The notes beneath the pieces are model-generated. The model was given only the letters and a program-made list of their open reading frames with translations, was not told where the DNA came from and searched no databases. A DNA stretch of 64,000 nucleotides from Alphaproteobacteria bacterium. GTDB lineage: Bacteria; Pseudomonadota; Alphaproteobacteria; Reyranellales; Reyranellaceae. A program made the translations under genes and the position numbers. Where the stretch lies: positions 434,001 to 498,000 of the forward strand of contig JAHBYP010000005.1 of assembly GCA_019635875.1 (NCBI GenBank), read 5' to 3'. Shown one piece after another: positions 8,945 through 15,467 of this stretch (its first letter is position 1; each line of letters opens with the position of its first letter).

Positions 8945-10489
8945 TCAGGCGGCGCGGACCTGCAGGCCCTCCGGCGTGGCGCGATAGCCGGTCAGAGTGC
9001 GCTCGGCGAAACCCAGGCGCCAGTCGAGCATCTTCTGGGCGTAGTGGCGCACCTTCGCCGCGTAGGCCGGGTCGTCGGCGCGGTTGACGAACTGGCCGGG
9101 ATCGGCGCGCAGGTCGAAGAACAGCGGCGGCAGCGCGGCGAAGTGCACGTACTTGCAGTCGTGGTCCTGCACCACCGCGAGGCTGCAGCGATCCATCGGC
9201 ACGCCCAGTGCCGATTCCGGCTGGCTGTAGTGCAGGTCGCGGAAGTCGAACTCGTAGTGGACCTCGCTACGCCAGTCGGCCGGCGGCGCGCCGTGACAGA
9301 ACGGCAGCAGCGAGCGGCCATCGCATTGCCGTGGAACGCCCAGCCCAAGCCACTCGAGGATGGTGGGCATGGTGTCGATCGTCTCGGTGAAGTGCCGCTC
9401 GACGATGCTGCCGCGCGAGGCGTTCGCCTCGGCCAACGGATCGCGGATGATCATCGGGATGCGATAGGACTCGTCGCAGTAGCCGATCTTGCCCAGGAGG
9501 TGGTGGTCGCCGAGCTGCTCGCCATGATCGCAGGTGAAGACGATCAGCGTGTCCTGCCACTGTCCGGTCTGCTGGAGGAACTCGAAGACGCGGCCGAGCT
9601 GGTCGTCGATCTCGCTCATCAGGCCGTAGTAGGTGGCGCGCATCTGGCGCACCTGGGCATCCGTCATTGCGCTGCCCAGACCCTGGCCGTCCTGGAAGAA
9701 GCTCGATTGCCTGATGTTCTCGATGTAGTAGCGCAGCAACGGATGCTGCCCGGCCTCCTCGGCCGCGCTCGCCGCGCGCAGCGGCGCCGGCATGTCCCGC
9801 GGATCGTACATCGCGTTATACGGCGCCGCTGCGACGAAGGGCGGATGCGGGCGGTAGTAGCCGAGATGCAGGAACCACGGCTTGCCTCCGCGGCCGCGCA
9901 GATAGGACAGCGCCCGTTCGGTGAACCAGGCGGTGTCCGACAGCTCCTTGGGGATGCGAGCGGGCCGCGCGGTGGCGCCGCTCTCGCCCGCCGCCGCTCC
10001 GTCCGGTAGCCAGATGTCCTCGCGATTCTCCGGCAGCCTGTATCCCTGGCTTTCGACCCAGCCGAAATAGGCGTCGCGATAGGGCTCGAAGGCCCCCACC
10101 GGGCGGAAGCCGTCCATGATGTCGCCGAGCACGAGAAAGCGCGGATCGTCGGGCCCGGTGGTGCGCGGATCGGGCGTGGTGGTGGTGTAGCCGACCAGCG
10201 CCGGATCGTAGCCGCCCTTGCGCAGCTCGTGCGCGAGGTTAGTGAAGCGCGAATCGAGCGGGATGGTGTTCTGCACTGCGCGATGGTTCATCAGGTACTG
10301 GCCGGTGAGCAGGCTGGCGCGGCCTGGCCCGCAGGGCACCGCCTGCGTGAAGTGATGACGGAAGGTGACGCCTTCGGCTGAGAGCCTGTCGATGTTGGGC
10401 AAGCGCAGCAATTTCGCGCCGAGCTTCGGCAGCAGCTCGCCGCGCCATTGGTCGACGACAATCAGCAGGACGTTCTTGCGCTTGGACAT
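8945..10489 (-). CDS. Sulfatase / phosphonate monoester hydrolase (alkaline phosphatase superfamily)
   Basis: 514 aa. VDQWRG near the N-terminus gives the first metal aspartate. CGPGRASLLTG (Cys53, Arg57) is the C-x-P-x-R sulfatase motif, whose cysteine must become formylglycine. FTCDHGEQLGDHH supplies the second metal pair. The VDQWR and PCGPxRASLLTG combination resembles phosphonate monoester hydrolases more than classic arylsulfatases. No signal peptide is seen, so it should be cytoplasmic, consistent with PMH-type enzymes. It lies 36 bases downstream of egtD on the same strand, with a 7-bp hairpin (10504-10519) between them, so read-through from egtBD is likely but may be attenuated. Confidence 0.87.
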   Translation of the reverse strand: MSKRKNVLLIVVDQWRGELLPKLGAKLLRLPNIDRLSAEGVTFRHHFTQAVPCGPGRASLLTGQYLMNHRAVQNTIPLDSRFTNLAHELRKGGYDPALVGYTTTTPDPRTTGPDDPRFLVLGDIMDGFRPVGAFEPYRDAYFGWVESQGYRLPENREDIWLPDGAAAGESGATARPARIPKELSDTAWFTERALSYLRGRGGKPWFLHLGYYRPHPPFVAAAPYNAMYDPRDMPAPLRAASAAEEAGQHPLLRYYIENIRQSSFFQDGQGLGSAMTDAQVRQMRATYYGLMSEIDDQLGRVFEFLQQTGQWQDTLIVFTCDHGEQLGDHHLLGKIGYCDESYRIPMIIRDPLAEANASRGSIVERHFTETIDTMPTILEWLGLGVPRQCDGRSLLPFCHGAPPADWRSEVHYEFDFRDLHYSQPESALGVPMDRCSLAVVQDHDCKYVHFAALPPLFFDLRADPGQFVNRADDPAYAAKVRHYAQKMLDWRLGFAERTLTGYRATPEGLQVRAA

Positions 10490-10525: not shown

Positions 10526-11508
10526 TCAGCCCGCCTGCGAATCGGCAACGAGGTAATGCACCGCAAAGAACTTGTCATCGTCGCACCAGGTGCGGCCGAT
10601 GTCGAAGCCCGTGCCGTCTACGAGTGCTCCGAATGTCCGATCGTCGTACTTGTAGGAGTACTCGGTGTGGATGCGTTCGCCTGCCGCGAACATAAAGCGC
10701 CAGCCCGCGACCATCGCCGTTTGCGAGCGCAGGCTGCGGGCGTAGATCTCGATGCGGCCCAGTTCCTCGTTGTAGTAGGCCTCGTGCGCGAAACCCGACA
10801 GATCGAGCGTGGCGTCGAGCTCCCGGTTCATGCGCCGCAGCAGGTTGAGCGTGAAGGCGGCCGTGACTCCGGCGCTGTCGTTGTAGGCGGCGTGCAGCGG
10901 CGCCGGATCCTTGCGCAGGTCGACGCCGATCACCATGGCGCCGCCGCCACCGACCAGCGCACGCGCACGCTGCAGGAAGTCCCTGGCCTCGTCCGGCGTG
11001 AGGTTGCCGATCGTCGAGCCGGGGAAGAATCCCAGACGGCGCGCCGAGGGCACCGAGTCAGGCAGCGTCGCGATCGCCATGTAGTCGCCGCACACCGGCT
11101 CGACCCGCAGCCCGGGATAGTCGCGCCGCAGCTGATCGGCCGTCGTGTCGAGATGGTCACGCGAGATGTCGATCGGTGCGTAGACGGCAAGATCGCGCAG
11201 CGCATCGAGCAGCAGGCGCGACTTCACGCTCGAGCCGCTGCCGTACTCGATCAGCGCGCGGCCCGGGCCTGCGAGCTCGGCGATCTCGGCCGCACAGCCG
11301 CGCAGGATCGCGGTCTCGGTGCGCGTCAGGTAGTACTCCGGCAGTTCGCAGATCTGGTCGAACAGCTGCGAGCCGCGCGCATCGTAGAGGTACTTCGCGG
11401 GAATCGCGCGCGGCGCGCGCGACAGGCCGTCGAGCACAGCGCGTTCGAACTCCTCGCGATCGGCGACGGCGGCGGCTTGCGCCAGGTTGTGCAGCGGGCT
11501 GGTGGTCA

Positions 11509-11512
<4 letters not shown>
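10526..11512 (-). CDS. egtD: L-histidine N-alpha-methyltransferase EgtD
   Basis: 328 aa. Trimethylates histidine to hercynine using three SAM, the first step of ergothioneine synthesis. Recognisable by KYLYDARGSQLFDQICELPEYYLTRTE at the N-terminus (family signature), the SAM-binding LIEYGSGSSVKSRLLL, and the FFPGSTIGNL motif. Length matches the family (about 320). The start ATG overlaps the egtB stop (ATGA, 11512-11509), so the two are translationally coupled. Note the order egtB then egtD, although EgtD acts first in the pathway. Confidence 0.95.
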
Positions 11513-12735
<1,223 letters not shown>

Positions 12736-12876
12736 ATCGCCTCCGCTGGCGCAGCAACGACGCAAACGTCATCCACGATAGCGGGTTCCAGGGCTCCGGT
12801 CGCGGCCGGATGCAACCGCGCCGTGTCAGGTTCCTGTGAGCACGCGCTTGCGCCAGGCGACACAAGCGTCGCTAAT

Positions 12877-13800
12877 ATGGTGATGCCCATCGCCGAGATC
12901 GATCCCTGGCGCATGCAGTATTTTGTTGATGTGCCCTGCCCCGACGACGTGCTGATTCCCACCGAGGACAGCGACGCGTGGATGTGGAACCCCGATCATC
13001 GCTGGGTCTACGACAAGCTCGCGGTGGCTCGCAGCCAGGGACTCGACGCCGCGCCGCATGGCGTCGACCCGCCGTCGTTCCCGGTCTTCTCCAAGCCGAT
13101 CTACAATCTCAAGGGCATGGGCGTGGGCAGCCGCGTCATCGCCTCGGCCGAGGACTACAGGGAAGCACAGACCGCCGGTCATTTCTGGACAAGCTTGCTG
13201 ACGGGAGATCACGTCAGCACCGACGTCGCAGTGCTCGACGGCGAGCCGCGATGGTGGCGCCACGCCACCGGCGAGTCGGCAGGCGATGGCACCTTCGATC
13301 ACTGGACAGTGCACGCCGAGGCCAACGAAGCGGTCGAGCGATGGTGCGGCGCCTGGTGCCGCAGGCACCTCAAGGGCTACAGCGGCATGGTCAACCTCGA
13401 GAGCATCGGCGGACGCATCATCGAGGTGCATCTGCGCTTCGCCGACCAGTGGCCCGATCTCTACGGCGAAGGCTGGGTCGAGGCGGTGGTGCGGCTCTAT
13501 GAGAAGCGCGCGTGGCGTTTCGACGACAGCCGACGGCGCACCGGATACAGCGTAGTGCTCTTCCTGCCGCACGGTCGGCGCTACCGCCATCCACCGGCCG
13601 CCATGATCGACGAGCTGACGCGGCAAGCCGCCATCTCCAGTGTGCAGATCACCTTCCACGAGGACCGGGCCGCGCATCTGCACGCCATGCCGCCTGGCGG
13701 GTTCCGCGTGGCGATCGTCAATTGCTGGGATCGCGACGCGGGCAATGCCGCCCGCGCAAGCCTGCGCCGGCAGTTTGAAGCATCCGCGGCGAGCTTGTGA
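12877..13800 (+). CDS. ATP-grasp-like protein of unknown function, divergent from egtB
   Basis: About 307 aa; not a family I can name. Features fit an ATP-grasp fold: FSKPIYNLKGMGVGSRVI (nucleotide-binding lysine strand), LLTGDHVSTDVAVLDGE (the G-x-x-x-S-x-D pattern), and near the C-terminus GMVNLESIGGRIIEVHLRFADQWPDLYG, resembling the metal-binding E...(E/N)xR end of ATP-grasp enzymes. That would predict ATP-dependent ligation of a carboxylate to an amine or thiol. The ATG at 12877 has a poor ribosome site; a GTG at 12823 and an ATG at 12883 are in frame. It shares a 140-base divergent promoter region with egtB, which suggests, but does not prove, a link to ergothioneine. Confidence 0.6.
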   Translation: MVMPIAEIDPWRMQYFVDVPCPDDVLIPTEDSDAWMWNPDHRWVYDKLAVARSQGLDAAPHGVDPPSFPVFSKPIYNLKGMGVGSRVIASAEDYREAQTAGHFWTSLLTGDHVSTDVAVLDGEPRWWRHATGESAGDGTFDHWTVHAEANEAVERWCGAWCRRHLKGYSGMVNLESIGGRIIEVHLRFADQWPDLYGEGWVEAVVRLYEKRAWRFDDSRRRTGYSVVLFLPHGRRYRHPPAAMIDELTRQAAISSVQITFHEDRAAHLHAMPPGGFRVAIVNCWDRDAGNAARASLRRQFEASAASL

Positions 13801-13859
13801 AACCAGGAGAGCGCGCTAGGCTGCCGGCAACGAACAGCGCAGAACCGGGACCGAACGCC

Positions 13860-15467
13860 ATGAACGCCAGCGCCGACATCCAGTACGACTACATCATCGT
13901 CGGCGCAGGCTCCGCCGGCGGCGCGCTGGCGGCAAGGCTGACCGAGGATGGCCGCTCGCGCGTGCTGCTGCTGGAGGCCGGCAAGGCGAGCCACCGCTAC
14001 GCGCGGTACCCGATCAGCTTCGGCCTGCTGATCAACAGCCCCGAAGCCAATTGGCTCTACCAGTCCGATCCCGAGCCGGGCACCGCCAACCGCGAGATTC
14101 CCGTGCCGCGCGGCAAGCTGCTGGGCGGCTCGAGCTCGATCAACGGGCTGGTCTGGGTGCGCGGCCAGCCGCTCGACTACGATACCTGGGCCCAGCTGGG
14201 CAATCGCGGCTGGAGCTGGCAGGACGTGGCGCCGCTCTTCACGCGCATCGAGCATTACGAGAAAGGCGGCAAGAACGGCCGTGGCACGGCGGGGCCCTTG
14301 AAGGTGTCGGAAGTTCCCGACCGCAATCCGCTTTACGACGCGCTGTTCCGGGCCGCCGTCGCCGCCGGCTACAAGCTCAACGCGGACTACAACAGCGAGG
14401 ACCAGGAAGGCGTCGTCAAGACCCAGGCCAGCATCTGGAAGGGCCGGCGCATGAGCGTGGCCCACTGCTATATCGAGCCGGCGATGAAGCGGCCCAACCT
14501 CACGGTGATCTGCGAGGCGCACATCAACAAGGTGCTGCTCGAGGGCAAGCGCTGCATCGGCGTCGAGTACGAGCGCGCCGGCCAGGTGCACACGGCGCGC
14601 GCCGGGCGCGAGGTCGTGATCTCTGCCGGCGGCGTGGCGTCACCGCAGATTCTCGAGCTCTCGGGCATCGGCAACCCCGAGATCCTGAAGAAGCACGGCA
14701 TCGAGATGAAGCACGAGCTTCCGGCGGTGGGCGAGAATTTCCGCGATCACCTCAACGCCCGCATCGTCTGGCGCGTGAAGGTGCCGGCGGTGTCTTACAA
14801 CCACATGGCGCGCGGCATCGGCGCCGTCGGCCAGGCGCTGAAATACATGACCTCCGGCGGCGGATTCTTCAGCCTGCCCTCGGCACCGGTGCTGGCATTC
14901 CTGCGCACGCGGCCCGAGCTCGCGACACCCGATGTGCAGATGCACCTGGTGCCCTACTCGATCAAGGATCCCAAGCAGCGCAAGCTGCAGGACTTCCCGT
15001 CGATGACCGTGGCCTGCTACCAGCTGCGCCCCGAGAGCCTGGGCTCGATCCACATCCGCTCGGCTGATCCGCGCGCCCAGCCGGCGATCCGCTTCAACTT
15101 CCTCGGCGATCCGATCGACCAGCGCACCACGGTCGACGGCTTCCGCATGATGCGCAAGATCGTCGAGGCGGCGCCGATGGACACCTATCGCGGCGACGAG
15201 CACTCGCCGGGCAAGGAGGTCGAAACCGACGAGCAGATCCTGGGCTGGATCCGCAACAACTCGCAGACCGCCTATCATCCGATCGGCACCTGCCGCATGG
15301 GGCCGGGACCGAACTGCGTCGTCGACGACAAGCTCAAGGTGCACGGGCTGGAAGGCCTGCGCGTCGCCGACGCCTCGATCTTCCCGACCATGCCCTCGGG
15401 CAATACCAATGCACCCAGCATCATGGTCGGCGAGAAGGCCGCGGATATCCTGAAGGCGGCCGCCTGA
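13860..15467 (+). CDS. GMC-family FAD-dependent oxidoreductase (choline dehydrogenase-like)
   Basis: 535 aa. It has an N-terminal FAD motif DYIIVGAGSAGGALAARL, the GMC signature GGSSSINGLVWVRG (residues ~85-98), the second GMC motif SAGGVASPQILELSGIG, and C-terminal HPIGTCRMGPG with the catalytic histidine and VADASIFPTMPSGNTNAP. The family oxidises primary alcohols. The substrate is not predictable, and no betaine aldehyde dehydrogenase or transporter neighbours it. The ATG at 13860 is chosen because the FAD motif begins about 10 residues later. It is followed after 17 bases by the small AtzG-like gene, so it may share a transcript with the amidase and SDR. Confidence 0.88.
   Translation: MNASADIQYDYIIVGAGSAGGALAARLTEDGRSRVLLLEAGKASHRYARYPISFGLLINSPEANWLYQSDPEPGTANREIPVPRGKLLGGSSSINGLVWVRGQPLDYDTWAQLGNRGWSWQDVAPLFTRIEHYEKGGKNGRGTAGPLKVSEVPDRNPLYDALFRAAVAAGYKLNADYNSEDQEGVVKTQASIWKGRRMSVAHCYIEPAMKRPNLTVICEAHINKVLLEGKRCIGVEYERAGQVHTARAGREVVISAGGVASPQILELSGIGNPEILKKHGIEMKHELPAVGENFRDHLNARIVWRVKVPAVSYNHMARGIGAVGQALKYMTSGGGFFSLPSAPVLAFLRTRPELATPDVQMHLVPYSIKDPKQRKLQDFPSMTVACYQLRPESLGSIHIRSADPRAQPAIRFNFLGDPIDQRTTVDGFRMMRKIVEAAPMDTYRGDEHSPGKEVETDEQILGWIRNNSQTAYHPIGTCRMGPGPNCVVDDKLKVHGLEGLRVADASIFPTMPSGNTNAPSIMVGEKAADILKAAA

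Follow-up and report, generated by a model that had tools for sequence, protein, structure and literature searches.

An undescribed ATP-grasp-fold protein encoded beside egtB and egtD in Reyranellaceae, a candidate ligase with a tentative role in the ergothioneine pathway

Bacterial ergothioneine synthesis is regarded as centred on EgtB and EgtD, and the uses that bacteria make of ergothioneine are poorly known. In a genome of the alphaproteobacterial family Reyranellaceae, a gene is encoded divergently from egtB and egtD (Table 1). The question raised by this locus is what kind of protein the gene encodes, and whether its place beside egtBD reflects a part in the ergothioneine pathway. The window analysed here is a single stretch of 64,000 nucleotides of one contig.

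Table 1. Features of the locus, with positions in the window
Feature	Positions	Strand	Basis
ATP-grasp-fold protein gene, 305 aa	12883-13800	+	start conserved among relatives; predicted fold
shared divergent intergenic region, ~147 bp	12736-12882	.	conserved blocks within genus
egtB, ergothioneine (hercynylcysteine) sulfoxide synthase	11509-12735	-	TIGR03440, FGE-sulfatase and DinB_2 domains
egtD, L-histidine N-alpha-methyltransferase	10526-11512	-	TIGR03438, Pfam Methyltransf_33
sulfatase gene, next after egtD	8945-10489	-	Pfam
GMC oxidoreductase gene, starts inside stop of ATP-grasp gene	13797-15467	+	nearest model PRK02106

The reading frame of the gene is open from a GTG at 12823 to the stop at 13800. 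Since nearly all relatives have M/V-P-I-x-E-x-D-P-W as their N-terminus (L096 is the sole match among L001-L130 that starts far inside), the most likely start is the ATG at 12883, about 117 bp downstream of the start at 12766 given in a first-pass annotation of the window. The protein shows 66-88% identity to members from its own family (58 carriers; three give an incomplete sequence, broken up or cut off at a contig end), and conservation across 43 diverse members is far above chance. At the level of sequence, the frame is confirmed as a real gene. A 22-residue copy of the protein start (L131; G072:C58:15594-15659), located about 1.5 kb upstream of a full gene, is perhaps the remnant of a duplication.

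The genes egtB and egtD were identified on the opposite strand by TIGR03440 (577.7 bits, cut-off 360) and TIGR03438 (380 bits, cut-off 290.9), respectively, as the divergent arrangement described earlier had implied. The egtB frame is open up to a TTG at 12765; its start is probably the GTG at 12735, because the TIGR03440 match begins at residue 12 of the frame, and the spacer between the divergent genes would then be about 147 bp. This spacer had been called a short divergent promoter region. It is conserved in the genus, with 88% mean column identity over 12690-12900, the 5' end of egtB included, in three members. A search of 12600-13000 gave no sigma-70-like promoter.

The GMC oxidoreductase has the choline dehydrogenase model PRK02106 as its nearest model (587 bits, below the cut-off of 605). 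Among the loci examined, this gene and the sulfatase gene adjoin the ATP-grasp gene in the own genus only, and the loci shown from other genera carry other genes on their outer flanks. An operon with the GMC oxidoreductase gene was considered from the overlap of the frames at 13797-13800 and was rejected, as this neighbour is confined to the own genus in the loci examined (L001-L003, L031 and L032).

The protein matches no family in Pfam or NCBIfam at E values up to 10, and a Pfam search with the 43 members gave no ATP-grasp family and only three families at chance level. A sequence search of the PDB gave a single match both with the one protein (E 0.61) and with a profile of 43 rows (E 1.3), and a plasmid search with the protein gave no match. 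An AlphaFold model computed from the 43-row alignment has a mean pLDDT of 93.1 and a pTM of 0.89. The best PDB matches of this model in Foldseek are the L-amino-acid ligases BL00235 (3vot; E 6.5e-12) and RizA (4wd3), then PylC and BacD, all four within E 6.5e-12 to 7.4e-10; GAR synthetase, PurK and biotin carboxylases come next. Foldseek gave 411 PDB matches at E<=0.001, and the 50 listed are ATP-grasp enzymes. In VIA-align, the highest scores were obtained with GAR synthetase (PurD; 3lp8, 2xcl and 2yw2; Z 20.3 over 281, 279 and 282 residues, respectively; 3.0-3.2 A), tied with 3vot_A (Z 20.1, 287 residues, 3.5 A). An independent pairwise profile alignment to a D-alanine-D-alanine ligase (L132, a weak match of a phylum search that is a Ddl by Pfam) covers residues 62-123 around the ATP lysine (E 1.3e-6, probability 90.7). 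Taken together, the model, Foldseek, VIA-align and the Ddl profile match leave the predicted ATP-grasp fold well supported, and the ATP-grasp-like motifs noticed in the first-pass annotation are borne out by them.

The nearest known systems differ from the window protein in several ways. The L-amino-acid ligases BL00235, RizA and BacD/YwfE (3vmm, 3wnz) have the same fold and the best Foldseek E-values, whereas the window protein is only 10-13% identical to them, differs from them in a metal-site motif (E-x-H, below) and is linked to egtBD. It is also about 100 residues shorter than its nearest solved relatives (305 compared with 411 for 3vot_A), and the missing residues would be mostly those of the N-terminal domain, because residue 71 is already the ATP lysine. 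The PurD chains have about 420 aa, and no purine context was seen at the gene. The likeness to the Ddl family does not extend to a match with Pfam Dala_Dala_lig_C. The modelled fold and these comparisons are best explained if the protein belongs to a subfamily of ATP-grasp-fold ligases that has not been described before.

Linkage of this gene to egtBD was examined in 61 genomes of its own family (G000-G060). The ATP-grasp gene is present in 58 and egtD in 57, and in all 57 genomes with both genes the two are divergent on one contig. The median gap between them is 1353 bp, which fits an egtB gene in between; in the best 30 loci, the gene next to the ATP-grasp gene is egtB in 29 and egtD in one. 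Both genes are absent from G007 (100% complete), G002 (67%) and G049 (82%), and G051 (89% complete) has the ATP-grasp gene and lacks egtD. The co-occurrence has a Fisher p of 1e-4, a value that rests on three absences, with only G007 100% complete, and on related genomes. The own-family loci are not independent, because other clusters of flanking genes are conserved as well (45, 39 and 38 of 80 named loci). Much of the linkage within the family is shared ancestry.

A broader set of 80 named loci was kept out of 219 found; gene calls in the locus neighbourhoods are based on codon usage and miss genes in some contigs (L170, L193, L194). An egtB or egtD gene lies within 6 kb or up to the contig end in 60 of the 80, divergent in 55 and co-directional in five. 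The remaining 20 have no egt gene nearby, and 18 of these come from genomes with egtD elsewhere. The co-directional loci have more distant egtB (51-55%) and egtD (44-50%) genes. Besides the divergent arrangement, two further orders have been identified: gene-egtB-egtD in L091 (= L138), L110 (= L140), L144 and L148, and egtB-egtD-gene in L093, L097, L099 and L149. L091 contains a single open frame of 738 codons in which the ATP-grasp protein is joined in frame to EgtB, whereas in its relative L110 a stop lies between the two frames. The fusion is known from a single MAG, so that an assembly error is possible, and an internal ATG could start EgtB alone.

The family of G821 (Acetobacteraceae) contains the ATP-grasp gene in 18 of 140 genomes, and five of the 18 are egt-linked (L138, L140, L144 and L148 in the order gene-egtB-egtD; L149 in the order egtB-egtD-gene). 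In this family egtD (E <= 1e-10) is found in 13 of the 18 carriers compared with 37 of 122 non-carriers (Fisher p 0.001, kinship ignored), and five carriers are without egtD. In a class-wide draw, the ATP-grasp gene was found in 21 of 385 genomes, 16 of the 21 outside the own family. An egtB over the cut-off was detected in five of these 16 carriers compared with 94 of all 385 genomes, and there is therefore no egtB enrichment among the class-draw carriers outside the own family; genome-wide co-occurrence with egtB was accordingly dropped as general support. An egtD over the cut-off was found in five of the 16, with one more below it, and 11 had none over the cut-off. Three of 398 genomes in a phylum-wide draw gave a match; two of these genomes belong to the own family, and the remaining match is a D-Ala-D-Ala ligase.

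The first-pass annotation had tied the gene to ergothioneine from position only. The tie is now better supported, because homologues are associated with egtB or egtD in three gene orders and one fusion; the 20 loci with no egt gene nearby and the 11 class-draw carriers with no egtD over the cut-off stand against a general association. The egt link holds beyond the position in one genome, yet it is not universal.

All 43 members examined share Lys71, Asn171, Glu173, His183 and Arg185 without exception, and Glu181 is almost invariant. ATP-grasp enzymes have a phosphate-binding lysine after the first ATP-grasp strand, and Lys71 agrees with it: the pairwise profile alignment sets Lys71 against the ATP lysine of the Ddl motif VFIKP. 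The nearly invariant His110 lies, as placed by eye, where the ribose-binding glutamate of other ATP-grasp enzymes would be expected. In the ATP-grasp superfamily the last core strand typically, though not always, carries a metal-binding E-x-N. In the window protein this place holds E181-V-H183, an E-x-H. The surrounding IIEVHLRFAD resembles LIEYNCRFGD of PurD from the same genome, but the overall alignment is not significant (E 0.34); it was rejected as proof of a metal site, and the motif likeness alone was kept.

The same core has been found in phage proteins. PHROG 3577, a phage family of unknown function, is homologous over residues 36-187 (E 1.1e-9), is matched by 42 of the 43 members and has core residues including E-x-H in common with the window protein. 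The relative in Synechococcus phage ACG-2014f has 202 aa; its N-terminus and the greater share of the C-terminal part are missing. Its gene (L198:3971-4579) adjoins the baseplate genes gp25 and gp6. A scan of viral contigs with the cyanophage protein as query gave 14 loci (L199-L212), and the scan with A1 as query gave no relative.

The replacement of E-x-N by E-x-H leaves catalysis by the predicted ligase unproved. Together with His110, the lack of any matching Pfam ATP-grasp model and the direct fusion to EgtB in L091, it would suit a non-catalytic protein of ATP-grasp fold that has a nucleotide or a metabolite of the pathway as its ligand and serves as a regulator or scaffold of EgtB. This explanation is nevertheless highly improbable, since Lys71, Glu173 and His183 are invariant with Glu181 nearly so, and the retention of the core in short phage relatives speaks for a selected active site. 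Because that core, E-x-H included, is kept in the 202-aa cyanophage protein, the altered motif fits a selected site and not decay. The putative site of the candidate ligase may bind Mg-ATP.

A ligase encoded beside egtB could also supply the sulfur donor of EgtB in place of EgtA, for example gamma-glutamylcysteine or another cysteine dipeptide; the first-pass annotation had raised the need for a thiol donor. EgtA, the glutamate-cysteine ligase of GCS2 type in the ergothioneine cluster of actinobacteria, is likewise a ligase encoded with egtB and egtD, but it belongs to a sequence family unrelated to the window protein, which contains no GCS2 domain (PF04107) by Pfam. ATP-grasp enzymes do make peptides, the nearest folds are those of L-amino-acid dipeptide ligases, and both the adjacency to egtB and the EgtB fusion agree with such a role. 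However, a separate GCS2 protein over the cut-off is already encoded in 39 of 40 carriers tested (the exception, G933, is a fragmented assembly), and supply of gamma-glutamylcysteine is unlikely for this reason. Many carriers, moreover, show no egtD. The thiol-donor idea is weakened by these counts, and sulfur-donor supply as a whole is improbable.

A tree of 65 rows places all 22 egt-linked rows inside a crown clade of 50 (support 100/98). In this clade, 44 of the 50 rows come from genomes with egtD, whereas 10 of the 15 rows outside it come from genomes with no egtD detected, a label given even to genomes that may be incomplete; G105, whose egtD is below the cut-off, lies outside the clade and is labelled as having egtD. 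Linkage to egt genes amounts to four changes on the tree, of which at least two are forced by well-supported branches.

Outside the crown clade a second gene context has been identified. An S15 hydrolase (X-Pro dipeptidyl-peptidase-like) gene adjoins deep-branching members in five families (L157, L160, L166, L170 and L171; by Pfam for L160 and L166), and in L171 it is split over two frames. Four loci have a Ddl-like ATP-grasp neighbour (L159, where it is fused to a methyltransferase, L160, L167 and L171), and three have a CitMHS transporter gene (L159, L167 and L170; by Pfam for L167). The Ddl-like neighbours have the canonical E-x-N, and the L171 protein gives no significant alignment to the window protein. 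The ATP-grasp gene, S15 hydrolase, Ddl-like and CitMHS genes recur as a set, in part or whole, in several alphaproteobacterial families (L157, L159, L160, L166, L167, L170, L171 and L193). Among 80 genomes (41 carriers and 39 non-carriers), five of the 16 class-draw carriers from other families have a close Ddl-like protein of more than 450 bits, as does one genome that does not carry the gene, G090; weaker matches were found in 11 further genomes, that of the window included.

Several other arrangements were observed. Fusions of a methyltransferase and a Ddl-like protein occur as two copies in one genome (L159:4601-6490 and L195:6262-8205), and the L195 copy adjoins genes that by eye are TRAP transporter-like and amidase-like. 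The most divergent relatives (about 40%), L129:1501-2400 and L130:1477-2364, have a TatA-like gene (by eye) on one side and a PIG-L deacetylase gene (by Pfam for L129) on the other, and beyond the latter comes a gene that by eye is glycosyltransferase-like; other low-molecular-weight thiol pathways show such a mix. Thirteen loci of Acetobacteraceae type (L079, L085, L086, L094, L095, L100, L105-L107, L109, L173, L174 and L177) lie beside XdhC-family and MobA-domain genes, and 11 of them also have a CoxE-like VWA gene (Pfam on one example each). A role in molybdenum-cofactor metabolism was considered from these 13 loci and rejected, as they represent one lineage-specific arrangement.

The second context raises the possibility that the protein is a ligase of a different small-molecule pathway, peptide- or amide-like, with a substrate common to all carriers, and that adjacency to egtBD reflects shared regulation or accessory use. 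The deep-branching loci with S15 hydrolase, Ddl-like protein and CitMHS transporter point in this direction, as do the close Ddl-like protein in five of the 16 class-draw carriers, the 11 carriers among these with no egtD over the cut-off, and the 13 XdhC/MobA loci. It is opposed by the three gene orders and the fusion with egtB or egtD in the crown clade, by three genomes of the own family, G007 with its 100% completeness among them, that lack both genes together, and by the Ddl-like partner over 450 bits, which was found in none of the 26 crown-clade genomes examined. A ligase of another pathway in all carriers is consequently a serious but rather unlikely reading. Judged from the second context, the family may have begun as an enzyme of amide- or peptide-bond formation in another pathway, and the crown clade may later have put it to use in ergothioneine metabolism.

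The reading tentatively preferred here, and one that could quite plausibly hold, is that an undescribed ATP-grasp ligase acts on a metabolite of the ergothioneine pathway in the lineage of the window and the crown clade. The predicted ligase would bind a nucleotide triphosphate with Mg2+ and convert a carboxylate into an acyl phosphate, which would be attacked by an amine with formation of an amide bond; both steps, carboxylate activation by ATP and attack by an amine, are suggested by the fold together with the closest relatives. In the lineage of the window the substrate would be a metabolite of the ergothioneine pathway, most likely ergothioneine or hercynine, whose free carboxylate would be coupled to an amino acid or another small amine. 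Ergothioneine or hercynine is cast as the acyl partner because its carboxylate is free and its trimethylated nitrogen is blocked as an amine. A more specific and doubtful proposal is that the product is an amide of ergothioneine or hercynine, in other words a conjugate of ergothioneine with an amino acid.

A selenoneine synthase SenA (NF041186; 494.8 bits, cut-off 420) is also encoded in the genome of the window. It and a divergent group 1 glycosyltransferase beside it form the pair L151:6514-7770 (= G000:C3:337513-338769) and L151:5496-6776, and the glycosyltransferase stands where SenB would be expected. From these two neighbouring genes, the organism may make both ergothioneine and selenoneine.

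In a literature search that left most subscription journals outside its scope, no title among the best matches describes a link between an ATP-grasp protein and egtBD, and absence from print is not established by it; within the same scope, no paper joining Reyranella with ergothioneine was found. A third gene kept beside egtBD through changes of order, and once fused to EgtB, offers a concrete way to find a step still missing or a derivative not yet described. If the doubtful proposal of an ergothioneine or hercynine amide is true, Reyranellaceae and some Acetobacteraceae and Rhizobiales would use a modified ergothioneine for storage, export or redox purposes, and its maker would be an ATP-grasp ligase whose metal site is E-x-H. 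Since no Pfam or NCBIfam profile matches the protein and its metal motif is unusual, working out its function would extend a large superfamily of enzymes by a new branch.
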